Source of the DNA: Deltaproteobacteria bacterium
GTDB taxonomy: Bacteria; CG2-30-53-67
Direction: 5' to 3'
Assembly: GCA_013151235.1 (NCBI GenBank)
Contig: JAADIO010000007.1
Coordinates: forward strand, 1 to 19,831
Length of the DNA: 19,831 nucleotides
Shown: positions 4,952 to 18,949 of the stretch, in pieces
Position numbering within the stretch: position 1 is the stretch's first letter
Layout: the number at the start of each line of letters is the position of its first letter
Notes under the pieces: generated by a model
Seen by the model: the letters and a program-made list of their open reading frames with translations, nothing else
Databases searched by the model: none
What the model was told of the DNA's origin: nothing
Position numbers and translations under genes: made by a program

Positions 4952-5896
4952 ATGCCGAAACCGATGATCTCCGTCGTGGTTCCCGTCTATGACGAGGAGG
5001 GGAGCCTTGAAGTGCTTGCTTCTGAAATCCGAACGGTCCTTGGTCCCCTGCCGAACGAATACGAAGTGATTTTCGTGAATGACGGCAGCCGGGACGGTTC
5101 CACTGCGAGATTGGCGGCCTTGCATAAAGACGATCCCACGGTGAAGGTGGTGGAACTGCGAGATAACTTCGGGAAATCGGTCGCCCTGTCGGTGGGATTC
5201 GAGCACGCGAACGGGGAGATCATCTTCACCATGGACGCCGACCTGCAGGACGATCCGAAGGAGATTCCCCGGTTTCTGGAAAAAATAGAGGAAGGTTACG
5301 ACCTTGTCTCCGGCTGGAAATTCAAGCGCCACGACCCGGTGGGCAAGACATTCCCTTCGAAGATCTTCAACCGGGTCGTTTCCATGATGACCGGTATCAA
5401 ACTGCACGATTTCAACTGCGGTTTCAAATGCTACCGGCGGGTGGTCGTGCAAAATGTCCGGATCTACGGTGAACTGCACCGCTTCGTCCCGGTCCTGGCC
5501 CGCTGGAAAGGGTTCCGGGTGGCGGAGATCAAGGTCGATCATCACCCGAGGCTGCACGGGGTATCCAAGTACGGAGTGGAGCGGTTTACGCGCGGGTTCC
5601 TCGATCTGCTGACAGTTCTCTTCCTGACCCGCTACCTGAAACGGCCGCTCCACCTCTTCGGGGGAATCGGCCTCTTCTGTCTGGTCCCCGGTCTGCTCCT
5701 GAGCGCATGGTTCGTGATTCAATGGCTGATCGGTGTTCCCATGCATGTCCGGCCCTTCATGGTCTTCGGCTGGGTGGCGATCATCCTCGGCATACAGTTC
5801 ATCTCAATGGGGCTTTTGGGGGAGATGCTGATCCATTCGTTTCACACCTATAAGCAGCGGGAAGACCCGTCGATTATCCGTAGAACCATGCTGTAG
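4952..5896 (+). CDS. GT2 family polyprenyl-phosphate-type glycosyltransferase (DPM1/ArnC-like)
   Basis: The 314-residue membrane glycosyltransferase has an N-terminal GT-A domain: ISVVVPVYDEEGSLEVL, VNDGSRDGS and the metal-binding DADLQDD at residues 95-101. The FNCGFKCYRR stretch and FVPVLARWKGF are typical of enzymes that load a sugar onto a polyprenyl phosphate. Two hydrophobic segments (about 232-262 and 269-295) anchor the C-terminus in the membrane, as in this group. The expected product is a polyprenyl-phosphate sugar donor, such as a GT-C enzyme would use on the other side of the membrane. The ATG at 4952 has only a weak ribosome binding site, but GT2 homology begins directly after it. 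The sugar cannot be told from sequence. It is the first gene after the promoter at 4832-4860. Confidence 0.9.
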   Translation: MPKPMISVVVPVYDEEGSLEVLASEIRTVLGPLPNEYEVIFVNDGSRDGSTARLAALHKDDPTVKVVELRDNFGKSVALSVGFEHANGEIIFTMDADLQDDPKEIPRFLEKIEEGYDLVSGWKFKRHDPVGKTFPSKIFNRVVSMMTGIKLHDFNCGFKCYRRVVVQNVRIYGELHRFVPVLARWKGFRVAEIKVDHHPRLHGVSKYGVERFTRGFLDLLTVLFLTRYLKRPLHLFGGIGLFCLVPGLLLSAWFVIQWLIGVPMHVRPFMVFGWVAIILGIQFISMGLLGEMLIHSFHTYKQREDPSIIRRTML

Positions 5897-5986
5897 AATT
5901 TCTGTACGGAAGAAGAGATTGATCTACCGGGAAACAGGCCGATATGTACAGGATCCGCTCCCTGGAGTTGTGTATTGTTCAATGGG

Positions 5987-7273
5987 ATGATGAATAGAGG
6001 TGACACTCTTGCGAAGAAAAGGCTCCTGTCAAACTTCGCTTCGCTTTCCGTCCTTCAGGGGGCGAATTACCTGTTGCCCTTCATAACCCTTCCCTATCTT
6101 GTCCGTGTTCTTGGGCCGGAGAAGTTCGGGCTTGTCGCCTTCGCCCAGGCCTTTATACAGTATTTCAATATCCTGACCGATTACGGGTTCAACCTTTCGG
6201 CTACCCGCGAGATATCCATACACAGGGAAGATGGTAACGAGTTGTCCGGGATATTCAGCGCCGTCATGATGATAAAGCTTGCACTGCTGGCCCTGTCGGC
6301 GGTCATCATGTTATGCATCGTCTTTTCTTTCGGCAGGTTCTATCAGCAACGGCTGGTATATTACTATGCCTTCGGCATGGTGGCGGGGCAGTGCATATTC
6401 CCCGTCTGGTTTTTTCAGGGGATGGAAAGGATGAAATATATCACCTTCCTGAATATATCGGCCAGGCTGATCTTCACAGTCTGCATCTTTGTCTTCGTTC
6501 ATGACGTGAATGATTACATCTATGTACCCCTGATCAACTCACTGGGTTTCATGACGGCAGGCATTCTCGCCTTCGTGATCGTCTTTAAGGACTTCCACGT
6601 GCGGTTTACACTCCCTTCCGTGGAAAGGATAAGGCACCAGTTGAAAGAAGGTTGGCATATATTCATCTCCACCGTTGCAATCAGCCTGTACACGACCTCC
6701 AATACGTTCATACTGGGGCTCCTGACCAATGACACCATCGTAGGGTACTATTCCGCGGCGGAGAAGATCATCAGGGCCGTACAGGGGCTGTTGACTCCGG
6801 TCTCCCAGGCGGTCTATCCCTATGTAAGCCGGTTGATTCATACGGCGAGGGGAGAGGGGATCCGGTTCCTGCGCAGAATGACGGTCATGGTCGGAGGTGT
6901 AAGTTTCGTCCTTTCTGCGATCATCTTTTTCTCGGCGGGTATAATCGTAAGGCTGGTTCTGGGCGGCCGGTATTCGGAATCCGTTGCGGTCCTGAGGATA
7001 CTCTCCTTCCTCCCCTTTGTCATTGCGTTGAGCAACATATTCGGGATCCAGACCATGCTGAACCTGGGTTACAAGAAGGCTTTCTCCAGGATATTAATCG
7101 GTGCGAGTCTGTTGAATATCGTCCTTGCGTTCATCCTTGTTCCTCCGTTCCGGCAGACAGGCATATCCTTTGCCGTCCTGGTTTCGGAGACCGTCGTTAC
7201 GGTTTCCATGTTTGTCTACCTGCAAGGAAGAGGGATCCGGATGTTGGGAGGCAAGGTATGCCGGACTATATAG
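5987..7273 (+). CDS. wzx: Wzx-like polysaccharide/lipid-linked glycan flippase
   Basis: The roughly 428-residue, strongly hydrophobic protein has about 12-14 predicted membrane helices. It begins with the RfbX/Wzx-type signature LPYLVRVLGPEKFGLVAF, then FNILTDYGFNLSATREIS, both characteristic of the MOP-superfamily PST flippases that move undecaprenyl-linked oligosaccharide units to the periplasmic face. Start choice is uncertain. The frame opens at a TTG at 5975, and ATG codons lie at 5987 and 5990; none has a strong ribosome binding site, and an ATG is preferred. The 3' end overlaps glf by 16 bases. ATA and AGG codons are frequent here and in glf, unlike in the genes before 5900, which hints at a different origin. 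Confidence 0.9.
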   Translation: MMNRGDTLAKKRLLSNFASLSVLQGANYLLPFITLPYLVRVLGPEKFGLVAFAQAFIQYFNILTDYGFNLSATREISIHREDGNELSGIFSAVMMIKLALLALSAVIMLCIVFSFGRFYQQRLVYYYAFGMVAGQCIFPVWFFQGMERMKYITFLNISARLIFTVCIFVFVHDVNDYIYVPLINSLGFMTAGILAFVIVFKDFHVRFTLPSVERIRHQLKEGWHIFISTVAISLYTTSNTFILGLLTNDTIVGYYSAAEKIIRAVQGLLTPVSQAVYPYVSRLIHTARGEGIRFLRRMTVMVGGVSFVLSAIIFFSAGIIVRLVLGGRYSESVAVLRILSFLPFVIALSNIFGIQTMLNLGYKKAFSRILIGASLLNIVLAFILVPPFRQTGISFAVLVSETVVTVSMFVYLQGRGIRMLGGKVCRTI

Positions 7274-8406
7274 TAGTGGGATCAGGTTTCGCGGGAAGTG
7301 TAATCGCAGAGCGGATCGCGAACGTCCTTGACCGCAATGTCCTGGTGATAGAGAAAAGGAGTCATGTCGGCGGCAACTGTTATGATTCCAGGGATGCAAC
7401 CGGTATCCTGGTCCACCGTTACGGCCCTCATCTCTTCCACACGAACCGGAAGGACGTCTTTGACTATCTTTCCGGTTTTACCGGCTGGCGTACATACCAT
7501 CACCGGGTCCTGGCCTGTGTAGGCGACAGGAAGATACCCCTGCCGTTCGATCTGAAGACATTACACATGGTATTTCCTGAAGAGACGGCGGCAGGGATCG
7601 AGAGCAGACTCGTCAGACGTTATCAATACGGCACAAAGGTTCCCATCCTGGATCTCATGAAGGAGGATGACCCCTCCTTAAGGCTGCTTGCGGATTATAT
7701 ATACAACAATATATTCCTGAATTACACGGCAAAGCAGTGGGGAGTAAGGCCGGAGGATGTGGATCCTGCGGTGACCGCCAGGGTGCCGGTCCTTGTCGGC
7801 AGGAACGACGGATATTTCGATGATCGTTACCAGGCGGTTCCTGAAGAAGGCTATTCCAGGATGTTTGAATGTATGCTGGATCATCCGAAGATTGAGCTGA
7901 TGCCGGGCACCGACTCCGGTGATGTGCTGTCCGTCAACCCCACGACCGGCAGGATATATTTCAAGGGGGTGGAGTTCAGGGGCAAGGTCGTCTTCACCGG
8001 CATGATTGATGAACTCTTCGGTTTCAAACTGGGGGCGCTTTCCTACCGTTCCTTGGACCTGGAGTTCGAGACGCTTGATCAGGAATATTACCAGGAGGTC
8101 GCCACCGTTAATTATCCCAACGATCATGCCTTCACGAGGATCACCGAGTTCAGGCATATTCACCCGGTGGATGTAAACAGGACGGTCATCCTGAAAGAAT
8201 ATCCGAAGACATACAGGGCGGGAAGGGATATACCTTACTATCCTGCTCTTACGAATGAAACCGCTGATCTATATGAAAAATACAAGGCTCTTGCCGCCCG
8301 GTCAGAAAACCTGGTCCTCGTCGGGAGACTGGCGGAGTACAAGTATTATGACATGGACGATATCGTCAAGAGGTCGCTGGATCTGTTCGAGGAAGAAATC
8401 AGGTGA
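7258..8406 (+). CDS. glf: UDP-galactopyranose mutase
   Basis: This flavoenzyme interconverts UDP-galactopyranose and UDP-galactofuranose, the donor for galactofuranose (Galf) residues. The 382-residue length is normal. The N-terminal FAD fold shows VVGSGFAGSVIAER (Gly8, Gly10, Gly13) and Glu32, followed by HVGGNCYD. Family motifs YGPHLFHTN (about 55-63), YTAKQWG, FDDRYQAVPEEGY and FTGMIDELF are all present, with the late arginine-rich TRITEFRHI. The start ATG at 7258 lies inside the end of the flippase gene and has GGGAGG a few bases upstream. Together with the next gene it implies that the glycan made here contains Galf. Confidence 0.97.
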   Translation: MPDYIVVGSGFAGSVIAERIANVLDRNVLVIEKRSHVGGNCYDSRDATGILVHRYGPHLFHTNRKDVFDYLSGFTGWRTYHHRVLACVGDRKIPLPFDLKTLHMVFPEETAAGIESRLVRRYQYGTKVPILDLMKEDDPSLRLLADYIYNNIFLNYTAKQWGVRPEDVDPAVTARVPVLVGRNDGYFDDRYQAVPEEGYSRMFECMLDHPKIELMPGTDSGDVLSVNPTTGRIYFKGVEFRGKVVFTGMIDELFGFKLGALSYRSLDLEFETLDQEYYQEVATVNYPNDHAFTRITEFRHIHPVDVNRTVILKEYPKTYRAGRDIPYYPALTNETADLYEKYKALAARSENLVLVGRLAEYKYYDMDDIVKRSLDLFEEEIR

Positions 8407-8415
8407 GGAGAAGCT

Positions 8416-9444
8416 GTGAAAGATAGTGTATGTGCTGTCGTGGTTACCTATAACAGAAAACATCTTCTCATTGAATGCCTTGAAGCGCTTTTGAACCAGG
8501 CAAGACCGATACAGGCCATCTGTCTGATAGATAATCTTTCAACCGATGGAACGCCTGAGTTGCTTTCAGCAAAAGGGTATATAGGTGATCTCCTTCCGGT
8601 CGATCTGCTGGAGCCTTTTGAACAGAAATGTGAGGTGAATAATTCGGCCGATGGAAAGCCGGTAGAGATTTACTATGTGCGGATGCACGAAAATGTTGGT
8701 GGTGCGGGTGGATTCCATGAAGGACTAAAAAGAGCGTATGAAAGAGGATTTGATTGGTTCTGGTTGATGGATGATGATGCCGAACCCACGCAAGGATCCT
8801 TGGCGAAGTTGCAGGAACATTTCGGCGCGAATGATATCGCGGCATTGGCATGCAGTGTACTGTCGGATGACGGTCGGATAGCCTATCATCACAGAGGTCT
8901 CATAGATCTGAGACGTGTTTTCCCTCTTCTACAAAAGCCGTTATTGCAAGAAAGCTACACATCTTCCGTGGTAAAAATAGATATGGCCTCTTTCGTGGGA
9001 TTGTTGGTCGGCAGAGAAGCCGTGAGCCGGATAGGTTATCCCAAGAAAGAATTTTTCATTCATCATGACGATGTCGAATACTCCATGCGACTGAGAAAAG
9101 CGGGAGAGATGCTTCTTGTTCCCGGTAGCAGGATGATCCATAAAGAGGCTGCACAATGTATACAAAAAAGATTTTTTGGGATGGATGTCGCCAGGATACC
9201 TTTTAATCGTTTTTGGCTTACATATTATGGTATGAGAAATCTGGTATGGCTGGGAAATCGCTACTCAAAAAACAGGGTTGGTTTCTATTCAGGATGGACC
9301 ATCAAGTTGTTACGCACTATAACGGGGATATTGCTGCTGGACGATAATAAGTTTCAACGCATTAGATTAGTTGTTCAAGCTTATCGTGACGGGTTGGGAG
9401 ATACTTTTGACAATGATAAGCCGCGCAAGTATTCTTTTCTGTAA
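8416..9444 (+). CDS. GlfT1-like GT2 galactofuranosyltransferase
   Basis: The 342-residue soluble GT2 enzyme has a GT-A fold beginning CAVVVTYNRKHLL. HENVGGAGGFHEGL leads into the catalytic metal site WLMDDDAEP (Asp119-121), and FFIHHDDVEYSMRL (HHDDVE at 216-221) provides the acceptor-activating residues. These features match GlfT1-type enzymes that transfer Galf from UDP-Galf, and the position nine bases after glf supports this. The start is GTG at 8416, supported by GGAG at 8407-8410. The gene is plainly more AT-rich than its neighbours: the line at 9361-9420 is 22/60 G+C, whereas 10321-10380 is 39/60. That suggests separate acquisition. The acceptor sugar is unknown. Confidence 0.85.
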   Translation: MKDSVCAVVVTYNRKHLLIECLEALLNQARPIQAICLIDNLSTDGTPELLSAKGYIGDLLPVDLLEPFEQKCEVNNSADGKPVEIYYVRMHENVGGAGGFHEGLKRAYERGFDWFWLMDDDAEPTQGSLAKLQEHFGANDIAALACSVLSDDGRIAYHHRGLIDLRRVFPLLQKPLLQESYTSSVVKIDMASFVGLLVGREAVSRIGYPKKEFFIHHDDVEYSMRLRKAGEMLLVPGSRMIHKEAAQCIQKRFFGMDVARIPFNRFWLTYYGMRNLVWLGNRYSKNRVGFYSGWTIKLLRTITGILLLDDNKFQRIRLVVQAYRDGLGDTFDNDKPRKYSFL

Positions 9445-9477: not shown

Positions 9478-10593
9478 ATGAGAATCTGTTACTTCGGCAC
9501 GTACGAAAAGGACTATCCCCGCAACCGGATTGTGATCCGTGGGCTGCGCCGCAGCGGGATCGAGGTTGTGGAATGCCACTTCCCGCTCTGGGAGCGGAGG
9601 GAGGACAAGACCGGAGGTTTTCTCTCGGCGGGATCGTTGCTGGTCGTCGCCCTCCGTCTCATCCGGGCCTACCTGGTCCTTGCCGTGCGGTTCTTCCGGG
9701 CAGGAAGTTTTGATTGCCTTATGGTAGGATACATCGGGCAGATGGATATCTTCCTCGCGAGATTCCTCCTTATGTTCAGAAGGCGCCCCCTGATATTCAA
9801 CCCCCTCGTATCACTCTACGATACCCTCGTGATTGACCGGGGAATCTTTCGCAGGGGTTCCATCACGGCCGGCCTTCTTTTCCGGATAGACCGGTGGTCC
9901 TTGCAACTGGCGGACCATGTGATCCTCGACACGAACGCCCATATCGACTATATCTCCGGACTGTTCGGTATAGACCGCGCTAAATTCATCCGGGTCTTCG
10001 TCGGCGCCGACGAGGATATCTTTTTCCCGAGGGAGGCTCCGGAGAGGGACGACGGATCCTTCCGGGTCCTCTTCTACGGCAAGTTCATTCCGCTCCACGG
10101 CATCCATCACATACTTCATGCAGCTAAGGCCCTGGAGGGGGATCCAACGATTCGTTTCCGGATCATAGGGCGGGGACAGCTCTCTGGCGAGATCCATGCA
10201 CTCGCAGGAAAGCTGGATCTGAAGAACGTGGAGTTCGTCGATTGGGTTCCCTACGAAAAACTCCCGGAGGAGATCGCCGCGGCTGATCTTTGCCTCGGGA
10301 TCTTCGGCGACACGGAAAAGACGCAGAGGGTGATCCCGAACAAGCTCTTCCAGGCCCTGGCCTGCGGCAGGCAGGTCTTGACGCTCGATACGCCGGCGGT
10401 GCGGGAGTTGGGGCCGGATCGCTCCGGATCCCTTTACACGGTTTTCTCACCTGGAGATCTTGTGGGAGTTATCCGCTATCTGGCGCTGCATCCTTCGGGA
10501 CCAGGCATGCCCCTTGGTGGGGATATGAGAAGGCCGGCCTATGCCTGTCATGATCTTGTTGAGCCGCTTACCGCTGTCTTGGGCTGTTTGTAG
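9478..10593 (+). CDS. GT4-type glycosyltransferase (GT-B fold)
   Basis: The 371-residue protein starts MRICYFGTYEKDYPRN, typical of the N-terminal Rossmann domain of GT-B enzymes. A hydrophobic stretch near residues 55-75 may associate with the membrane. The second domain starts near FRVLFYGKFIPLHGIHHIL and contains IIGRGQLSGEI, ADLCLGIFG and the nucleotide-sugar motif IPNKLFQALACGRQVL (from about residue 286). In that motif a Gln stands where many relatives have Glu. The family retains anomeric configuration; donor and acceptor are not predictable. The ATG at 9478 lacks a strong ribosome binding site, but homology begins there. G+C returns to the higher level of the early window, in contrast to the preceding gene. 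Confidence 0.85.
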   Translation: MRICYFGTYEKDYPRNRIVIRGLRRSGIEVVECHFPLWERREDKTGGFLSAGSLLVVALRLIRAYLVLAVRFFRAGSFDCLMVGYIGQMDIFLARFLLMFRRRPLIFNPLVSLYDTLVIDRGIFRRGSITAGLLFRIDRWSLQLADHVILDTNAHIDYISGLFGIDRAKFIRVFVGADEDIFFPREAPERDDGSFRVLFYGKFIPLHGIHHILHAAKALEGDPTIRFRIIGRGQLSGEIHALAGKLDLKNVEFVDWVPYEKLPEEIAAADLCLGIFGDTEKTQRVIPNKLFQALACGRQVLTLDTPAVRELGPDRSGSLYTVFSPGDLVGVIRYLALHPSGPGMPLGGDMRRPAYACHDLVEPLTAVLGCL

Positions 10594-10599
10594 GAGAGT

Positions 10600-10662
10600 A
10601 TGCCCGTACTCCTGGATTTACAGGGTGTGTTTTTCATTGATTGCAAGAGGAGCTGTTCATGA
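10600..10662 (+). CDS. Possible 20-residue coupled small ORF
   Basis: An ATG at 10600 preceded by GGAGAG (10593-10598, overlapping the upstream stop codon) opens a 20-codon frame that starts MPVLLDLQGVFF and ends with TGA at 10660-10662. That TGA overlaps the ATG of the next glycosyltransferase gene as ATGA. The layout fits a small coupled or leader peptide, but the peptide resembles nothing I know, the spacing from the ribosome binding site is short, and chance is a fair explanation. Confidence 0.25.
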   Translation: MPVLLDLQGVFFIDCKRSCS

Positions 10663-11573
10663 GGTGCAGGAGCCTTGCCGTGGTTCTTAACTGGAAGAGG
10701 GGCGGTATGACATGCCGCTGCCTGGAGTCTCTTGCAAAGGGCGGTTGGGAGGGAAGGGTCTGTGTCGTGGATAACGGATCGGCCGACTCATCCGTGGAGG
10801 TGATCCGTGAATATGTCGAAGGACGGGAAGGAATCGTTCTCGTCGAACTTCCGGAAAACATGGGTTTTGCCGGGGCAGTGAACCGTGCAGTGAAGGCCGC
10901 CGGGCATGAGGCGGAGCGTGTACTTATTATCAACAATGATGCCTTCGTGGAGGATGACGCGGTACGGTGTCTTTGGAAGGCGATGGATGATGATCCGGCG
11001 ATAGCCGTGATAGGTCCTAAGATCATGCAGCCCGGGGAGCCGCCACGGATCGATTCGGCAGGATGCCGGGGGATCATTCAGCTTGCACAGCCCTTCATGC
11101 GGGGGCATGGGAAAGCGGACAGGGGGCAGTATGACCATCCGGAAGATGTGGAATACGTGACCGGTGCATGCCTGATGGTGCGTATGGATGTATTTGAAAG
11201 GGTCGGCGGTTTCGACGAAGATTTTTTCATGTATTTCGAGGACTGGGACTTCTGCCGCAGGGTCCGGCAGTCGGGGGGGCGATGCGTCTTCCTTCCTTCC
11301 GCCGTGGTTACGCATATAGGATCCGCTTCCACCGGCGATACGACCCCTTTCTATCATTACCATCATGCCCGCAGCAGGATCCTCTTTGCCAGGAAACACC
11401 TCTCTGCCTCCGTGTTCTGGTGTCTCTTCGTTCCTTACATGTTCTTTTACCGCGTTATCTTCCAGGGAATCCGCATGATCGTGGCTGGGATGCCCCGGAA
11501 CGCCGCTGCCATCCTCTACGGGGTTTTGTGGCACCTCGGGGTGCGGAGAGATGAAAGGCCGGGCTTGTCATGA
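10659..11573 (+). CDS. GT2 family glycosyltransferase (rhamnosyltransferase/WbbL-like)
   Basis: The 304-residue protein has a GT-A domain: LAVVLNWKRGGMTCRCLESL, VVDNGSADSS, then ENMGFAGAVNRAV and the metal site INNDAFVEDD. YVTGACLMVRMDVFERVGG and FFMYFEDWDFCRRVR (Glu194-Asp195-Trp196-Asp197) are the catalytic-base region typical of WbbL-like rhamnosyltransferases. A hydrophobic segment near residues 252-277 may sit at the membrane. The ATG at 10659 is chosen over the in-frame TTG at 10641 because AGGAG lies seven bases before it and homology starts there. The stop overlaps the next start (ATGA), so the two genes are probably co-translated. Sugar specificity is unproven. Confidence 0.88.
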   Translation: MRCRSLAVVLNWKRGGMTCRCLESLAKGGWEGRVCVVDNGSADSSVEVIREYVEGREGIVLVELPENMGFAGAVNRAVKAAGHEAERVLIINNDAFVEDDAVRCLWKAMDDDPAIAVIGPKIMQPGEPPRIDSAGCRGIIQLAQPFMRGHGKADRGQYDHPEDVEYVTGACLMVRMDVFERVGGFDEDFFMYFEDWDFCRRVRQSGGRCVFLPSAVVTHIGSASTGDTTPFYHYHHARSRILFARKHLSASVFWCLFVPYMFFYRVIFQGIRMIVAGMPRNAAAILYGVLWHLGVRRDERPGLS

Positions 11574-12688
11574 AGGTAGCTATTGCGGCAATTGCGGGCG
11601 CCCTTGGAGGACCGCGCAGTTATGCACGGGAACTCGTCCGTGCCTTGACCGGGCTGGCCGGAGAGGACGACTTCTACGTGCTGACCGATGATCGTGCCGC
11701 CTGGGATGATGCGGGCGGTGAGGTTATGGAACTGCCGATGCGTTCTTCCTACACGCGCCCGCTCTGGGATCACTGGAAGGTGCCTCGGGCGTTGAGGTCC
11801 CTGGATGTCGATCTGTTCCACCATACGAAGAACGTGGTGCCGCTCTTTTGTCCCGCGAAATGCGTGGTGACCATCCACGACCTTGCACCTTTCCTTTATC
11901 CCGATACCTTCACCTTCCTGCAGGGTATCCACCTGCGCACACATATCCGTTTTGCCGCAAGAAGGGCGGATGCGGTCATCGCCGTCTCCTCTAACACCCG
12001 GGATGATATCATCCGCCATTTCCATGTGCCGGAGAACCGCGTCCGTGTCGTATATAACGGGGTATCTCCGGTTTTTTCCCGCTCCCCCGGCGACGGGGAA
12101 CTGGCGGGATGCCGTGCAAGGTATCGCCTCCCCGGCCGGTTCATCCTCTATGCCGGGACGATCCAGCCCCGGAAGCAGGTGGATATGCTGATCCGGGTCT
12201 ATCACCGGCTGAGGGAGGAGGAAGGAATCCCGCACCATCTGGTGGTCGCGGGACGCATGGGGTGGAAGTCGGGCGGGCTCCATGAAACTGTCCGGTCCCT
12301 GGGATTGAACGACGTGGTCCACTTTACCGGCGCCGTCGACGGTCACGATCTTCCCCTGATCTACAGGTCGGCCGAGGTCTTTGTCAACCCAAGCCTCTAC
12401 GAGGGGTTCGGCCTTACCTGTGTCGAGGCGATGGCATGCGGGACGCCGGTGGTGGCCTCCGGCGTCTCTTCGATCCCTGAAGTGGTGGGGGATGCCGGCC
12501 TGCTCTTCGATCCGTCGGACGAGGAATCCCTCTTCCGGGCGCTTCTGACGGTCATCCGTGAGGAAGGGCTGCGGGAACTGCTCCGGCAAAAAGGAATTGA
12601 CCGTGCCCGAAAATTCTCATGGGAAAAGGCCGCGGCGGGAACGCTGGAGGTCTACAGGTCAGTATTGCAAAACAGGGGAGGCGCCTGA
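11570..12688 (+). CDS. GT4 family glycosyltransferase (mannosyltransferase-like)
   Basis: The 372-residue GT-B enzyme has GALGGPRSYARELV in the N-terminal acceptor domain, DLFHHTKNVVP and TIHDLAPFLYPDTF. The linker region is AVIAVSSNTRDDI and VVYNGVSPVF, and the donor domain has RFILYAGTIQPRKQVDMLI and the retaining E-x7-E motif YEGFGLTCVEA (Glu278 and Glu286). Its closest well-known relatives are mannosyltransferases of O-antigen and exopolysaccharide clusters, but the sugar cannot be assigned. It overlaps the previous gene by four bases (ATGA). One base separates its TGA from the ATG of the first TMTC-like gene, so these genes probably form one transcriptional unit. Confidence 0.92.
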   Translation: MKVAIAAIAGALGGPRSYARELVRALTGLAGEDDFYVLTDDRAAWDDAGGEVMELPMRSSYTRPLWDHWKVPRALRSLDVDLFHHTKNVVPLFCPAKCVVTIHDLAPFLYPDTFTFLQGIHLRTHIRFAARRADAVIAVSSNTRDDIIRHFHVPENRVRVVYNGVSPVFSRSPGDGELAGCRARYRLPGRFILYAGTIQPRKQVDMLIRVYHRLREEEGIPHHLVVAGRMGWKSGGLHETVRSLGLNDVVHFTGAVDGHDLPLIYRSAEVFVNPSLYEGFGLTCVEAMACGTPVVASGVSSIPEVVGDAGLLFDPSDEESLFRALLTVIREEGLRELLRQKGIDRARKFSWEKAAAGTLEVYRSVLQNRGGA

Positions 12689-12689
12689 T

Positions 12690-14777
12690 ATGGGTACTTT
12701 ATTAACGGTCGAGCGCCGCCGCAGGGCCTTCTTCTATATGGTGCTTGTCGCGGTCTGCGCAGCGGCTGTCTATCTGAACACGTTCACGAACGGCTTCGTC
12801 ATGGACGACCGGACGATGATCGCCGAAAACGGCGCCATACGGTCCCTTGGAAATATATGGAATATACTGCTCCACGATTACCGCCCCTTGCGAACCATAA
12901 GCTATGCCCTGGACTATGCCGCCTGGGGGCTGAATCCCTTCGGTTATCACCTGACCAACATCTTCCTGCATGTTCTGAACTGCCTGTGCCTTTACGGGAT
13001 TGTAAGGATTCTTTTCGGAAGCGAAAGGACCGCCCTTTTCGCTTCGCTCCTCTTCGCCGTCCATCCTCTCCATACCGACGCCGTGAGTTATCTCTCCGGA
13101 CGGCGGGATGTCCTTTTTTCATTCTTCTATCTTTTAGGCTTCTACTTCTTCCTCCGCTACAGGAGGCGGAAAAAAAGGAAGCGTTATCTGGCAATTGTCC
13201 TGCTCGCTTTCCCGCTGAGCATGCTCAGCAAGGAAATGGCCGCCTCATTCCCGCTCCTCCTGCTGGGGTACGACATGATTTTTCCAGGGGCCGGTCCGGC
13301 GGAGGATGGCAAGGCGGGTCCGGGCCGGAGGTTCCGCCGTTCGGTTCTGCCGGTCATGCGGCGCCACTTCCTGTTTTATCTTTTTCTCTTTTCCATGGTG
13401 CCGGCCTTTGCCTATTATTACATATGGATGCGCCATGCCTCGGAGATGGTGACCGCAAAGGGTGTGCAATGGTGGGGCGGCAGCGTCCTGTCGAATTTCA
13501 TGACCGTTGCATCCGTCCTGGCACACGATGTCCGCCAGACCCTATTCCCGGTCCGGCTGGTTGCCGATTATTTTGCCTTTCCCCTTGTCACTTCGGGATC
13601 GGATCCGGAGTTCATCAGGTCGGTCCTGCTGCTCATCACGGCAGGCGCACTCTTTTTGATCGCCCTTCGCCGTGAGAAGAGAATAGCCTTTTCTCTCTTT
13701 TGGTTCTTTGTAACGCTTCTTCCGGTGATGCAGATAATCCCTCACCACGATCTCCTGGCGGATCATTTTCTATACCTGCCTTCCGCGGGTGCCTGCATGA
13801 TTGGAGGGTTCCTCTTCGACAGGGTCATGAACCATGGCAAACTTGCGGGAGTTGCAGCAGCGCTTCTGATCCTGACGCTGGGATGTTTCTCGGTCCGGAC
13901 ATGGCGCAGGAACCGGGTCTGGAAGAACAATATCACAATCTATTTGGATGACCTGAAGACCTATCCGGATAATAACCGTGTACGCCTTCTCCTTGGAATG
14001 ATGTTCATGAAGGCACATCTCTACGACATGACCGAAGACGAATTTGGTAAGGCCGAAAGAGGAGAGCGTTTTTTTCCTGAGGCCTACGCATATGATGGTT
14101 TTATCCATTACAAACGCGGGGAATATAAAAAAGCGCTCCGCCTGGAGCTAAAGGCGCTTTCTGTAAAGGATCTGCCCATGGCACATTTTGTTCAGGGGCT
14201 GGTGTATGAACGGTTTGAGCAATGGCGGCAGGCGTTTGATGCCTACGGGAAGGTTTCGAAGGGGCGTTTCCACACTGCGGCGCTCTTCGGCCGGTTCAAG
14301 TGCGCCCGCCTCCTGTGCGATAGGGAAGGAGCAAGGCTTTCGGCCCGGGCATACCTTGCGGCCACGGGACCGCTGGTGCAGGGGGGCGGCCCGGGCAGGG
14401 ACGTCCTGCAGAAACGTGCACTGTGCAGGGAATGGCTGAACAGGCGGGCGGACCGGCGGAAAGATTGTGAGGACCGTCCAACCGGGTCCGGCAGGACGGG
14501 GCTCCGGCACCTTGCTGATACGATTCATTCTTATGAAAGAAGAATTGCAAAGGCGCCTGATGATGCGGAGGCGCACCGGCGGTTGGGGATGATCTACCTG
14601 AAGAAGGTGGAGGATCTCCCCCGCGCCTACAGACATCTTGCCCGGTCGCTGCGGCTTGCCCCGGGGCAGTCCCATGCGGTGAAGATGAAACGGATCACGG
14701 AGGACCTTAATCGGCTCTATGAGAACTACTCCCGCAAAACCGGGATCAGTATTACCGTTCTGCTGGGGGGCCGGTAA
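12690..14777 (+). CDS. TMTC-like GT-C membrane glycosyltransferase with C-terminal TPRs (paralogue 1)
   Basis: The 695-residue protein has a membrane half of roughly ten helices (residues 1-430) and a soluble TPR-like half (about 430-695). The membrane half matches the TMTC/GT-C group. A first-loop acidic pair lies in NGFVMDDRTMI (Asp39-Asp40); further motifs are HPLHTDAVSYLSGRRDVL, SKEMAASFPLLLLGYD and LLADHFLYLPS. TMTC enzymes O-mannosylate proteins in eukaryotes; bacterial members are mostly uncharacterised and should use a polyprenyl-phosphate sugar at the periplasmic face. The ATG at 12690 is preferred because GGGGAGG lies nine bases upstream and the first helix follows; the frame extends further upstream inside the GT4 gene. 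It is paralogous to the next gene. The TPR half, including HRRLGMIYLKKVEDLPRAY, probably binds a protein partner or substrate. Confidence 0.85.
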   Translation: MGTLLTVERRRRAFFYMVLVAVCAAAVYLNTFTNGFVMDDRTMIAENGAIRSLGNIWNILLHDYRPLRTISYALDYAAWGLNPFGYHLTNIFLHVLNCLCLYGIVRILFGSERTALFASLLFAVHPLHTDAVSYLSGRRDVLFSFFYLLGFYFFLRYRRRKKRKRYLAIVLLAFPLSMLSKEMAASFPLLLLGYDMIFPGAGPAEDGKAGPGRRFRRSVLPVMRRHFLFYLFLFSMVPAFAYYYIWMRHASEMVTAKGVQWWGGSVLSNFMTVASVLAHDVRQTLFPVRLVADYFAFPLVTSGSDPEFIRSVLLLITAGALFLIALRREKRIAFSLFWFFVTLLPVMQIIPHHDLLADHFLYLPSAGACMIGGFLFDRVMNHGKLAGVAAALLILTLGCFSVRTWRRNRVWKNNITIYLDDLKTYPDNNRVRLLLGMMFMKAHLYDMTEDEFGKAERGERFFPEAYAYDGFIHYKRGEYKKALRLELKALSVKDLPMAHFVQGLVYERFEQWRQAFDAYGKVSKGRFHTAALFGRFKCARLLCDREGARLSARAYLAATGPLVQGGGPGRDVLQKRALCREWLNRRADRRKDCEDRPTGSGRTGLRHLADTIHSYERRIAKAPDDAEAHRRLGMIYLKKVEDLPRAYRHLARSLRLAPGQSHAVKMKRITEDLNRLYENYSRKTGISITVLLGGR

Positions 14778-14788
14778 AAGGCGAGAGC

Positions 14789-17497
14789 ATGGTGAAAGGG
14801 ATAATGGACATGGATCGTGGAACTCTATTCGGAGATCGTGACGGGAAATACCACAGGGAAGGGCTGATCATCCTTTTGCTGGTGGCGCTTTCATCTGTTG
14901 TTTACATGAACTCCATCTTCGGAGGTTTCGTCCTTGACGACATGGTCCTGATCCAGAAGAACCCGGTGATCCATTCTCTTTTCGATATCCGGCTCCTGAC
15001 CTACCGTTGGCTAAGGACCTTCTCCTATGCCGTCGATTACTCTCTCTGGGGGCTCAATCCGGTCGGGTACCATCTTTCCAATATTTTTTACAACACCCTG
15101 ACGGTCCTGTTGGTCTATTTCCTCACGAAGCGATTGACGAAGAACCTGACGATCACCTTTGTTGCGTCTCTTCTCTTCGCTCTGCATCCGATTCATACGG
15201 AAGCGGTCAGTTATCTCTCCGGGCGGCGGGATATTCTGTCCGCACTGTTCTACCTGCTCGGATTCATCTTGTACCTCAAGGGGAGGGGAGGCGGGGGGCG
15301 CCTCTATTATGCCGGAGCCTTCCTTGCCTATCTGCTCAGCATTTCCGCCAAGGAGATGGGGGTGACGCTCCCGGTCCTGATCGTGGCATATGAAATCCTG
15401 CATGAAATAGATGAAGACTGGGATGCCCCCGCTTCCACGATTCGTTTGTTTGTGCGTGCCGTCCGATCCAACCTGGCCCGCTTCCGGTGGCTCATCACAT
15501 TGTCCATTTTGCTGGTCGCGGGATATCTCTACGTCGATCTCTTTCTTGAACATGCCTCCGGGATGGTCAGTGCAAAGGGAATCAAGTGGTGGGGCGGGAA
15601 TCCGGTCTCCAATTTCGCGACCGTGGCCACGGTGCTTGCTTCCTACATGAAGAAACTGCTCTTCCCCGTGGTTCTCCGCTTCGACTACCGGATGTTTCCG
15701 CTCCGGCACTCCCTCCTGGATATGGGGGTAATCTCATCCCTGGCACTGCTTGCCGGGTTGCTTCTGCTTTCTTTCGTATTTATCCGAAGGCGTCCTGCCG
15801 TAACATTCGGAATATGGTTCTTCTTCATCACATTATTGCCGGTCATGCAGATCATCCCGCATCACATGCTGATGGCGGAGCATTATCTCTATCTTCCCTC
15901 TTACGGATTCTGCCTCTTGGCCGGAATCCTTGCGGAGAGGATCCATTACAGGCATAAACTCATTATTCTCTTCCTCGCTGCCGGGGTTCTTGTCTGCCTG
16001 CTCTTTTTCGTCCGTACTGTTGCCCGGAACCAGGACTGGCTCGACACATTCACTCTGACGGCGGAGGGGCTTCGTCACGATCCGAAGGAGCCTGTTTATC
16101 ACTTTTTCCGGGGGCACGCCTACCACCTCGTTCACCTTGAGCGGAGCGCCTGGCGGGAGTTGGAAAAGGCGGTTTATCCGAACCTCTACCGGGACTCGAA
16201 GCTGTTCGCGATCAGGGCCGTGATCCTTTTCGAGCAGGGGGAATATGAGAAAGGAGAGAAAGAGACAAAGAAAGCCCTTGACATAGACCCCGATGATCAA
16301 ATGGCGCTTGTTAATGGAGGCTATTTTGCCTTAATGATGGGTGACAATCAAAAAGCCCTTCACTATTATCTGAAGGTGCGGCCGGATTATGAAGGAGGGG
16401 GACACCTTCAGAACATAGCAAAGATCTACCTGGAAGAAGGAAAGGTCAAACGGGCCGAGAAAACCATGAGACGGGCTCTTTCTCTCCATTCCTACAGGGC
16501 TGTATTTCACTATGACTTGGCCGAGGTCCTGATCAGGGAACTTAAGTTTGACCAAGCAGCGGAGCAGTACAAAAAGGTTCTGCGTTTTGCAAAGAACGAC
16601 CCCGAACCCTCCGAATACTTGAAGGATGTTCCACAGAAGCTTAAGTGGGCTGAACGGTTCAGGCAAAGGCTGTCTGCCGTAAAGAGCAATATGGGGGGCG
16701 GAGAAACGGGGAGAGAGATCGCCTATGTCCGGCTGTATCTTGATGCCGGGAACAATGGCGAGGCGGCCAGGAGACTGAGGTCCGCAATAGGTGCGGGAGA
16801 TGATTCTTATGGGACACGCTGTCTTTTGGGATCTGCTTTGCTGAGAGAGGGCAAGAGGGATGAGGCGCTGAAGGCAGTTGAGGGCATTAAACTTGCGAAC
16901 GGGATGCTCTCCGATGAGGAGCTTGCAACACTGGTCGATATCTTCTCGCAGAATCTCAGGATTAACAAGGCCATTGATTTTGTGCGTGAACTGATCCGGC
17001 GGCACCCGGGGAAGAGCTCATACAGGGATCAGTTTGCTGCATTGAAAGGGATGGGTGAACTGCAGAAGAGATGGCGTCGCCTTGATTATGAAGGAGATCC
17101 GTTTGGCGCTGCCATTGCCGAGGGTGATCTTTATGTGAAGGTTGGAAGGATAAAAGAGGCGCTGCGGTGCTATGAGTCGGCTATCCAACAGAAACCTGAT
17201 GATCCGGATCTGCTCCGAAAGCTTTATAGCTTTTACGAGCCGAGGGGATACCCGTACCGGAGGAAGGCAATCCAGACCGGGCGTACTCTCCTGAAAATCG
17301 ATCCGAAGGACTCACGGATCGCCCTCCGCCTCTGGCGGTTCTATTATGATAAGGTTGAGGACTACGAAAGTGCTCTCATCTATCTCGAAAGAGCGGTCAA
17401 GGCCGATCATGATCGGGCGGACAATCGGAAAACAAGATCGGCCCTTAAAACCTTGAAACAATATGTGCGGACATACAAAAGTGAGGTTGTACAGTGA
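14789..17497 (+). CDS. TMTC-like GT-C membrane glycosyltransferase with long TPR domain (paralogue 2)
   Basis: The 902-residue paralogue has the same plan: a GT-C membrane half (about residues 25-430) and a TPR half nearly twice as long as in the first copy (about 435-900). Shared landmarks are GGFVLDDMVLI (Asp50-Asp51), HPIHTEAVSYLSGRRDIL, SAKEMGVTLPVLIVAYE, HASGMVSAKGIKWWGG and LLPVMQIIPHH followed by AEHYLYLPS. TPR units are visible near ALVNGGYFALMMGDNQKALHYY and GRIKEALRCYESAIQQKP. The first Met (14789) has only a weak ribosome binding site, and Met6 and Met8 are alternatives. It starts 11 bases after the previous stop. The next gene is a type IV pilin, which makes pilin or another exported protein a candidate substrate, but this is inference. 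An undecaprenyl-linked polymerase or ligase role cannot be excluded. Confidence 0.85.
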   Translation: MVKGIMDMDRGTLFGDRDGKYHREGLIILLLVALSSVVYMNSIFGGFVLDDMVLIQKNPVIHSLFDIRLLTYRWLRTFSYAVDYSLWGLNPVGYHLSNIFYNTLTVLLVYFLTKRLTKNLTITFVASLLFALHPIHTEAVSYLSGRRDILSALFYLLGFILYLKGRGGGGRLYYAGAFLAYLLSISAKEMGVTLPVLIVAYEILHEIDEDWDAPASTIRLFVRAVRSNLARFRWLITLSILLVAGYLYVDLFLEHASGMVSAKGIKWWGGNPVSNFATVATVLASYMKKLLFPVVLRFDYRMFPLRHSLLDMGVISSLALLAGLLLLSFVFIRRRPAVTFGIWFFFITLLPVMQIIPHHMLMAEHYLYLPSYGFCLLAGILAERIHYRHKLIILFLAAGVLVCLLFFVRTVARNQDWLDTFTLTAEGLRHDPKEPVYHFFRGHAYHLVHLERSAWRELEKAVYPNLYRDSKLFAIRAVILFEQGEYEKGEKETKKALDIDPDDQMALVNGGYFALMMGDNQKALHYYLKVRPDYEGGGHLQNIAKIYLEEGKVKRAEKTMRRALSLHSYRAVFHYDLAEVLIRELKFDQAAEQYKKVLRFAKNDPEPSEYLKDVPQKLKWAERFRQRLSAVKSNMGGGETGREIAYVRLYLDAGNNGEAARRLRSAIGAGDDSYGTRCLLGSALLREGKRDEALKAVEGIKLANGMLSDEELATLVDIFSQNLRINKAIDFVRELIRRHPGKSSYRDQFAALKGMGELQKRWRRLDYEGDPFGAAIAEGDLYVKVGRIKEALRCYESAIQQKPDDPDLLRKLYSFYEPRGYPYRRKAIQTGRTLLKIDPKDSRIALRLWRFYYDKVEDYESALIYLERAVKADHDRADNRKTRSALKTLKQYVRTYKSEVVQ

Positions 17498-17773: not shown

Positions 17774-17789
17774 TGGCACAGGCCTTGCT
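17774..17789 (+). promoter_or_regulatory. Sigma-54 (RpoN) -24/-12 promoter of the pilin gene
   Basis: TGGCAC at 17774-17779, five bases, then TTGCT at 17785-17789 match the RpoN consensus fully. The invariant GG (17775-17776) and GC (17787-17788) are ten bases apart. Transcription should start near 17800, giving a leader of about 110 bases. RpoN control of a major pilin gene, usually through PilS/PilR, is well established in several bacteria and fits this location. Confidence 0.9.
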
Positions 17790-17910: not shown

Positions 17911-18396
17911 ATGATGACTATCAACAAGAATGAACATGGTTTTACCCTGATCGAACTGATGATCGTTGTGGCGATCATCGGGATCCTGGCCGCTGTGGCT
18001 ATTCCCGGCTATATCGGTTTCCAGGAGAAATCAAGAAAAGGTGCGATCATTGGTGCTGCATCGAACGCTGCGGCGGAAATTCAGGGTTGGCTGAGCGTCT
18101 CGCTCAACCCCAATGGTAATTTGAGGGAAGTGGACACTGACGGAAACGGTGTTGTGGATAGTAGTGATGCCACCGATTCAACACTGAACGGTGCAGTAGC
18201 CACGACATATATCACTATGAGGACGGCTATGGGAGATACGTCGCCCTGGAGTACGAGTGCTTTATGGGTGTCAGGTTCTTCAGCTCAACAAGGTCAGATT
18301 GCGCTCACTCAGTCTGGAAACAGTGTTACTATTCGTGCCTATGATAATAGTTCCACACCTGTTCTTTTGTACACCAAGACGGTCAGCGCCGACTGA
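17911..18396 (+). CDS. pilA: Type IV pilin, major-type
   Basis: The 161-residue prepilin has the class III signal [18 protein letters not shown]. Prepilin peptidase should cleave after Gly10, leaving Phe at position 1 and Glu at position 5 of the mature pilin, followed by the long hydrophobic assembly helix. The globular part has no cysteines, so it lacks the disulfide loop of many PilA proteins. Residues 75-86, [12 protein letters not shown], form a complete dockerin/EF-hand-like calcium loop with Asp, Asp, Asn, Asp, Asp at positions 1, 3, 5, 9 and 12. The C-terminal region is rich in Ser, Thr and Asn, possible O-glycan sites. The ATG at 17911 has AAAGGAG seven bases upstream; Met2 is an alternative. 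A sigma-54 promoter lies upstream and a strong terminator follows. Confidence 0.93.
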
Positions 18397-18422: not shown

Positions 18423-18461
18423 GGGGTGGGCCGGATTTAGGCCCACCCCTGTTTCTTGTTT
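18423..18461 (+). terminator. Rho-independent terminator after the first pilin gene
   Basis: A perfect 10-bp stem, GGGGTGGGCC at 18423-18432 and GGCCCACCCC at 18440-18449, encloses a 7-base loop and is followed by a T-rich tail (TGTTTCTTGTTT). It lies 26 bases after the pilin stop and should end most transcripts there, so the second pilin gene depends on readthrough or a weak promoter I cannot identify. Confidence 0.93.
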
Positions 18462-18559
18462 CTGGGGAGATATCGTGGTTATAGGGAAGGGAAATAATGT
18501 TTTCAACTAAACGGCCGCTCCGGAGCAGTAACCGATTGATATTCCGAAGAGGAATGATC

Positions 18560-18949
18560 ATGAAAAGAGAGGATGGTTTTTCCCTGATTGAACTGATGGT
18601 GACCATCGCCATTATCGGGATCCTCGCCGCCATTGCCATCCCGACCTACACCGGGTATCGTCTCAAGGCGGAGCGATCCATCGCCTGGACGGACCTGCAG
18701 AGTCTGCGGCTCCTTGAAGAGCAGTATTATGCGGAGAATAATGCCTATGTCGAAGGTGCCGATACGGCAACTTTAAAAACCAACCTTCCCGGTTTTCAGC
18801 CCGATTCCGGGTCGCAATACGATTATGATGTGGCCTTTTCAGGAACGAACAACCAGACCTTCACTGCTAGAGCCACCCGCAAATCCGGTACCGGCAGTGA
18901 TACCGGCTCCCCCTGGACGATCGATAATACCAACACCCGGAACTGGTAG
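18560..18949 (+). CDS. Type IV pilin-like protein, minor/PilE-type
   Basis: The 129-residue prepilin-like protein begins MKREDG|FSLIELMVTIAIIGIL, with cleavage after Gly6 and Glu5 kept in the mature form. After the helix, AERSIAWTDLQSLRLLEEQYY and AENNAYVEG followed by a C-terminus ending in Trp recall PilE-type minor pilins. The ATG at 18560 gives the usual short leader and has GAGGA upstream. However, the frame is open to an ATG at 18497 with GGAAGGG six bases before it, which would give a 27-residue leader. The gene follows a strong terminator, so it is probably expressed at a lower level than the first pilin. No cysteines and no calcium-type loop are seen. Confidence 0.88.
   Translation: MKREDGFSLIELMVTIAIIGILAAIAIPTYTGYRLKAERSIAWTDLQSLRLLEEQYYAENNAYVEGADTATLKTNLPGFQPDSGSQYDYDVAFSGTNNQTFTARATRKSGTGSDTGSPWTIDNTNTRNW

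Follow-up and report, generated by a model that had tools for sequence, protein, structure and literature searches.

What two tandem membrane glycosyltransferase genes with TPR extensions do between a cluster of glycan genes and the genes for type IV pilins is the question raised by a contig of 19,831 b, which was analysed in its complete length (hereafter the window) and derives from a 2.62 Mb, 99% complete genome of a small phylum (8 genomes in the phylum search). From the sequence features discussed below, we consider it moderately likely that the two proteins, GTC1 and GTC2, arose by duplication and are GT-C glycosyltransferases that face the periplasm and serve specifically the type IV pilus, and the pair probably attaches sugars to pili.

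All genes of the window are located on the + strand. The end of dxs, tlyA, a uracil-DNA glycosylase gene and a cyclase gene are followed by an ArnC/PgfS-like GT2 gene, wzx and glf, the glycan glycosyltransferase genes in the order GlfT1-like GT2, GT4, GT2 and GT4, then GTC1, GTC2, pilA, a second pilin gene and the start of miaB (dxs and miaB were named from reading of the translations). The features that matter for the argument are:

4952..5896, + strand: ArnC/PgfS/DPM1-type GT2, candidate donor maker as a polyprenyl-phosphate-sugar synthase (NCBIfam)
5975..7273, + strand: Wzx-type flippase (PF01943, E 1.6e-68)
7258..8406, + strand: Glf, UDP-galactopyranose mutase (TIGR00031, 473 bits versus a cut-off of 304)
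8416..9444, + strand: GT2, GlfT1-like (NF050113, E 4e-25, under the cut-off)
9478..10593, + strand: GT4 (PF13692/PF00534)
10641..11573, + strand: GT2 (PF00535)
11570..12688, + strand: GT4 (PF00534, E 7.5e-36)
12690..14777, + strand: GTC1, 695 aa, GT-C membrane domain with a short TPR tail (PMT_2, E 1.1e-11)
14789..17497, + strand: GTC2, 902 aa, GT-C domain with a long TPR superhelix (TPR_19, E 8e-21; PMT, E 0.0022)
17774..17789, + strand: sigma54-type promoter TGGCACAGGCCTTGCT 5' of pilA (exact consensus match)
17911..18396, + strand: PilA, type IV pilin, candidate acceptor (N_methyl, PF07963, E 5.7e-11)
18423..18449, + strand: terminator-like hairpin 3' of pilA (10-pair GC-rich stem, T-rich tail)
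18554..18949, + strand: second type IV pilin, ComP_DUS type (PF16732, E 1.7e-13; N_methyl)

The tandem of two related membrane transferases with TPR described in the first-pass annotation is borne out by open reading frames, homology, Pfam and models alike, as is its placement between glycan and type IV pilin genes in a single orientation. The polyprenyl-phosphate-type GT2 and the flippase claimed for the cluster are also found, the latter by PF01943 and the former as a candidate with NCBIfam matches to ArnC (NF007986, E 1.4e-55) and PgfS (NF047588, E 1e-46) that both lie under the equivalog cut-off. No initiating phosphoglycosyltransferase was found in the window. Both pilins, encoded at 17911 and 18554, carry the prepilin N-methylation signal (PF07963, TIGR02532). 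At the other end of the window, the uracil-DNA glycosylase open reading frame (2140-2760) encodes 206 aa, where the sister species has 239 aa, and gives a partial profile match, a possible frameshift or assembly error.

GTC1 and GTC2 share approximately 40% identity across approximately 480 aa (E 2e-98) and match PMT_2/PMT and TPR families in Pfam. In the AlphaFold2 models (mean pLDDT 89.6 for GTC1 and 89.4 for GTC2), residues 1 to approximately 450 match GT-C enzymes and the remainder matches TPR proteins; in GTC1 the GT-C domain spans approximately residues 1-425 and the TPR starts from about 427. The TPR part is indeed of unequal length, as had been noted at first reading, GTC1 having the short and GTC2 the long version. 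The two acceptors or two roles that the first reading derived from this difference gained no support as stated and are conjectural. The TPR part prevails in searches, as a sequence search against solved structures yielded TPR matches only and TPR proteins dominate the Foldseek result with the whole GTC1 model, from which the GT-C domain emerged after VIA re-alignment. The best non-TPR structural matches of both models are then STT3, PMT and ArnT: the VIA alignment gives STT3 8age (Z 22.5), Pmt4 9i5l (Z 20.0) and ArnT 5f15 (Z 19.1) for residues 1-440 of GTC1, and STT3 8age (Z 21.9), Pmt4 9i5k (Z 19.4) and ArnT 5f15 (Z 18.7) for GTC2, where 5f15 is the ArnT structure with undecaprenyl phosphate bound. 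The acidic pair D50 D51 is retained. Among 79 relatives, the two residues of DD are kept in 75 and 78, the arginine of RxD in 74, the lysine of KE in 71 and the tyrosine of ERxxY in 75, motifs which correspond to M1, M3, M4 and M7 of the TMTC motifs M1-M7 used for comparison (PMC7801869). In both window proteins the phosphate-binding arginine of ERxxY is replaced by histidine (EHxxY/DHxxY), and the M5 DW motif is not recognisable. The fold matches of the predicted models together with the retained acidic pair place GTC1 and GTC2 in the GT-C superfamily.

The earlier designation of the pair as TMTC-like stands for the architecture, a GT-C domain plus C-terminal TPR, and not for membership in the TMTC family. 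All human TMTCs match PF08409 (DUF1736). Neither GTC1 nor GTC2 gives a match to this family at E values up to 10, where the HMMER filters may miss very weak matches, and PF08409 does not figure among the 25 most frequent family matches in a set of 53 relatives. TMTC membership was therefore dropped for this lack of a PF08409 match, and the two proteins are TMTC-like by architecture only. With the animal O-mannosyltransferases TMTC1-4 they have in common the N-terminal GT-C domain with DD, RxD and KE and the C-terminal TPRs, but they are bacterial, lack a detected PF08409/DUF1736 and have EHxxY/DHxxY in place of ERxxY (PMC7801869). The literature on GT105 in bacteria provided nothing useful.

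The history of the pair can be followed in one other genome of the same genus, the MAG Dive96_bin10.193, to which the same-genus comparison is confined. In trees built from 205-222 GT-C domains, the window pair groups with the same-genus pair in one clade (support 0.994-0.996), where GTC1 and GTC2 each branch with their own same-genus counterpart (support 0.98-1.0), which indicates that the duplication is older than the species split. The same-genus genome retains both GTC copies by pilA, with a third, more distant GT-C/TPR gene between GTC2 and pilA. With gene order kept, the ArnC-like GT2 (83% identity), the GT4 encoded at 9478 (83%), PilA (81%), GTC2 (64%) and GTC1 (46%) have counterparts, the GT2 encoded at 10641 is only 31% identical, and the Wzx, Glf and GlfT1-like genes are replaced; specifically, nothing in the same-genus locus matches Wzx, the place of which is occupied by a different multi-TM protein, and Glf is absent from the same-genus contig. 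By sequence, this looks as if donor maker, transferases and acceptor were conserved as a set and the glycan module that they surround could be exchanged. The sigma54 promoter has a counterpart in the same-genus locus, with 2 mismatches and at the same distance from pilA. As side observations, PilS/PilR-like genes lie downstream in the sister locus, and the sister-species GTC1 homologue (G005:C107:11646-14288, L020) has one internal in-frame TAA and may be decaying or misassembled.

Beyond the genus, the association of GT-C/TPR genes with pilin genes is uneven. The neighbourhoods of 79 GT-C loci, sampled at first across many phyla, gave few and distant pilin neighbours and no strong general enrichment; the linkage signal appeared only on direct examination of pilA loci. 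No pilin linkage was seen for the relatives most similar to the pair beyond its genus (L027, L045, L053), and a genome of the same family (G004) has a pilA cluster without an adjoining GT-C gene. In one of the 79 loci, that of the MAG WY3.bin34 (G008), of a deltaproteobacterial class, on the other hand, pil genes, two pilin genes and two tandem GT-C/TPR genes occur together. Approximately 60 GT-C loci of this class include five with a pilin gene within 341 bp, that of G008 among them, and in two of the five the GT-C gene is located between two pilin genes and overlaps the second. When loci of the class were picked by pilin alone, 9 of 20 pilA loci, additional to these five, had a GT-C/TPR gene in the same orientation at 83-351 bp upstream or downstream, two of the nine with two GT-C/TPR copies. 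The locus L218, for example, reads pilC, pilS, pilR, a 773-aa TM/TPR protein, pilA, GTC/TPR, GTC/TPR and a PMT_2 protein. On the tree, 11 of the 12 members of the GT-C clade concerned are pilin-linked (support 0.999). A conserved 750-785 aa multi-TM protein with the motif 'QKQHWDSDIFW' is encoded just 5' of pilA in loci of the same class (L211, L214-L222, L225); it has a TPR tail in the members scanned, and some of these loci are without another GT-C gene.

Among 18 genomes of an independent panel, for which GT-C content was the sole selection criterion, seven have a GT-C gene on the same strand within approximately 9 kb downstream of pilA versus 0.8 expected, with P ~4e-6, or P = 0.09 after collapsing six related loci to one, probabilities which indicate the order of magnitude only, as 15 pilins and 5 GT-Cs per genome were assumed and kinship was ignored. 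Five of the seven loci (Desulfuromonadales and one Nitrospirae) consist of pilA, a small partner or second pilin gene, ABC genes, the GT-C gene and a UbiA gene, the product of which scores above the decaprenyl-phosphate phosphoribosyltransferase (DPPR synthase) cut-off of NCBIfam in L189 and is homologous in the other four. By this sequence relationship, the UbiA-type gene is a candidate donor maker for a TfpW/arabinofuranose kind of pathway. The seven panel GT-Cs form one clade (support 0.98) that includes one sequence from an Aquificota MAG; pilin-linked GT-Cs as a whole fall into several separate clades, which requires a minimum of 10 changes of label along the tree versus a mean of 27.6 with shuffled labels. 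Pilins adjoining a GT-C gene are richer in S/T (p 0.007, in a small sample of non-independent members). A conserved gene neighbourhood across genomes, on which the first-pass annotation had staked its proposal, is thus seen, since pilA linkage recurs across lineages.

Several pilin loci deserve mention in their own right. The order pilA, ABC transporter, GT-C and DPPR synthase is observed in L189-L193 (Geobacter relatives and one Nitrospirae), and no paper on this candidate route of pilin glycosylation in electroactive bacteria was found. The pilA loci of Geobacter relatives have been studied for extracellular electron transfer. A TMEM260-like gene (PF11028; L198:3707-5749) overlaps the end of a pilin gene in the Nitrospirae MAG WY3.bin97; TMEM260 represents the third animal O-mannosyltransferase type. 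A YfhO-type GT-C gene (PF09586; L187:8751-11126) starts 105 bp past pilA.

With respect to the mechanism, GT-C enzymes as in the ArnT, PMT and Gtr systems are supplied with their sugar by a polyprenyl carrier at the outward-facing side of the membrane (PMC11127046). In the proposed pathway, the ArnC-like GT2 would load a sugar onto polyprenyl phosphate in the cytoplasm, the donor would be flipped across the membrane, and GTC1 and GTC2 would move the sugar to serine or threonine residues of S/T-rich pilins on the periplasmic side before pilus assembly, with the C-terminal TPR superhelix gripping the acceptor. Such transfer to the pilin, the simplest reading, may comprise two successive steps; alternatively, the pair might elongate a first sugar. 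The variable Wzx/Glf/glycosyltransferase part would build a species-specific oligosaccharide, which may extend or join the same glycan. We infer the periplasmic side of the TPR, the identity of the donor, the pilin as acceptor and the division of labour between GTC1 and GTC2. Several observations speak against the proposal: the nearest relatives beyond the genus lack pilin linkage, the pilA cluster of G004 has no GT-C gene beside it, pilA of the window has its own promoter and terminator, most GT-C/TPR genes lie away from pilins, the sister GTC1 homologue has an internal TAA, histidine replaces the arginine of ERxxY, the window has no initiating phosphoglycosyltransferase, and the panel of 18 genomes by itself gives P = 0.09 once related loci are collapsed. 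The earlier claim of a periplasmic transferase system with pilin as substrate gains from the GT-C fold, the catalytic motifs, the GT2 candidate and the recurrent pilA neighbourhood, but pilin and surface glycan cannot be told apart as targets from sequence.

The strongest rival, which we regard as unlikely, is that the pair acts on the surface polysaccharide of the cluster itself, by side-chain decoration, polymerisation or ligation, with pilA merely a neighbour. Its strength lies in the packing of the pair with the glycan genes: GTC1 starts 1 bp past the last GT4 gene and is separated from GTC2 by 11 bp, so that both look co-transcribed with the glycan genes, while pilA lies 413 bp beyond GTC2 on the same strand and possesses its own sigma54 promoter and terminator. 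Also, the set of GT2, flippase and GT-C resembles the published three-component systems GtrB/Gtr or ArnC/ArnT (PMC11127046), and the window is without Wzy; the earlier statement that neither Wzy nor WaaL is evident applies to the window and not to the genome, which has four Wzy_C proteins on other contigs. However, in the loci of the G008 class examined in detail, GT-C/TPR genes belong to the pil operon or directly follow it, with no Wzx/Glf-type cluster separating them from pilA, which in part also holds for Desulfuromonadales, and the same-genus genome swaps its glycan genes yet retains the GTCs by pilA. It is this recurrence inside pil operons of other lineages that tips the balance towards pilin over polysaccharide decoration.

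Less probable still is that the pair glycosylates other exported proteins, or pilins among others, such that pilin adjacency reflects a general role in O-glycosylation. GTC paralogues of the same genome adjoin other genes, 5-17 GT-C copies per genome are common among relatives, and relatives in L036 and L053 adjoin CXXCH-rich, cytochrome-like genes, but the specific adjacency to pilA recurs in several clades. Most GT-C/TPR genes of the surveyed genomes are indeed located away from pilins, which suggests that the family has other substrates too; as a whole it probably has many acceptors. The GT-C/TPR genes by CXXCH-containing genes (L036:4339-6078, L036:11762-13900 and L053:778-2300) might have extracellular cytochromes as acceptors. 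Very improbable, finally, is that the TPR part alone is functional, promoting assembly or stability of the pilus in the manner of PilF/Tgl, on an inactive membrane anchor: PilF 2ho1 is found among the TPR structural matches (Z 17.5) and the PilW/Tgl NCBIfam models match weakly, but many unrelated TPRs reach equal scores and the catalytic residues of the GT-C domain are retained.

As dedicated pilin glycosyltransferases, GTC1 and GTC2 would have a precedent in TfpW, the GT-C D-arabinofuranosyltransferase of group IV Pseudomonas pilins, so that a GT-C enzyme with its gene next to pilA is already known to glycosylate pilin (PMC11841053). The likeness in described features consists of a GT-C gene by pilA, which is found in the window and kept in the same genus, and the expected polyprenyl-phosphate sugar donor (PMC11841053); moreover, DPPR-synthase genes accompany the Desulfuromonadales GT-Cs and a GT-C/TPR gene on contig C41 of this genome. 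In contrast to TfpW, the window pair has a TPR tail, a tandem duplication, a Galf/glycosyltransferase cluster and an ArnC-like GT2, and no genes of the polyprenyl-P-arabinofuranose pathway or DPPR genes were found in the window. On contig C41 (G000, L023:345-5053), the GT-C/TPR gene is accompanied by genes for DprE2, DprE1 and a DPPR-synthase-like UbiA, likely a polyprenyl-P-arabinofuranose route. The ArnC/ArnT, GtrB/Gtr and pentofuranose three-component systems equally combine a polyprenyl-phosphate sugar synthase with a GT-C enzyme, as reflected in the ArnT matches (Z 18.7-19.1), but differ from the window pair in its TPR tail and pilin neighbourhood (PMC11127046). With the pilin oligosaccharyltransferases of the TfpO/PglL/TfpM type, the window pair would share the role in pilin O-glycosylation proposed for it. 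These oligosaccharyltransferases carry Wzy_C, for which neither GTC1 nor GTC2 gives a match.

To our knowledge, the enzymes known to glycosylate pilins come mostly from Proteobacteria and fall into two architectures, the TfpO/PglL/TfpM type and TfpW. What is new is the presence of GT-C/TPR genes in or near pilA loci of other lineages. In cable bacteria, pilA has been noted to form a cluster with TPR proteins and a phospholipid-carrier-dependent glycosyltransferase (PMC10580974); save this note, no paper linking TMTC-like proteins, or GT-C plus TPR, to pilins was found. Tentatively, and at somewhat less than even chances, the TMTC-like GT-C/TPR proteins may represent a class of protein O-glycosyltransferases that is widespread in bacteria, has gone undescribed and was repeatedly recruited to type IV pilus loci, those of Geobacter relatives included, where the donor makers would differ by lineage (GT2 for polyprenyl-P-hexose or UbiA for polyprenyl-P-pentose), the TPR would recognise the acceptor and tandem copies would work one after the other. 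A TPR-bearing GT-C at pilA would widen the range of known enzymes to a little-studied phylum, a deltaproteobacterial class, Desulfuromonadales, Nitrospirae and Aquificota, and pilA-linked GT-C/TPRs would supply bacterial models for TMTC-like enzymes. For Geobacter-type pili, the candidate glycosyltransferase and donor-making enzyme encoded downstream of pilA would offer a testable point.
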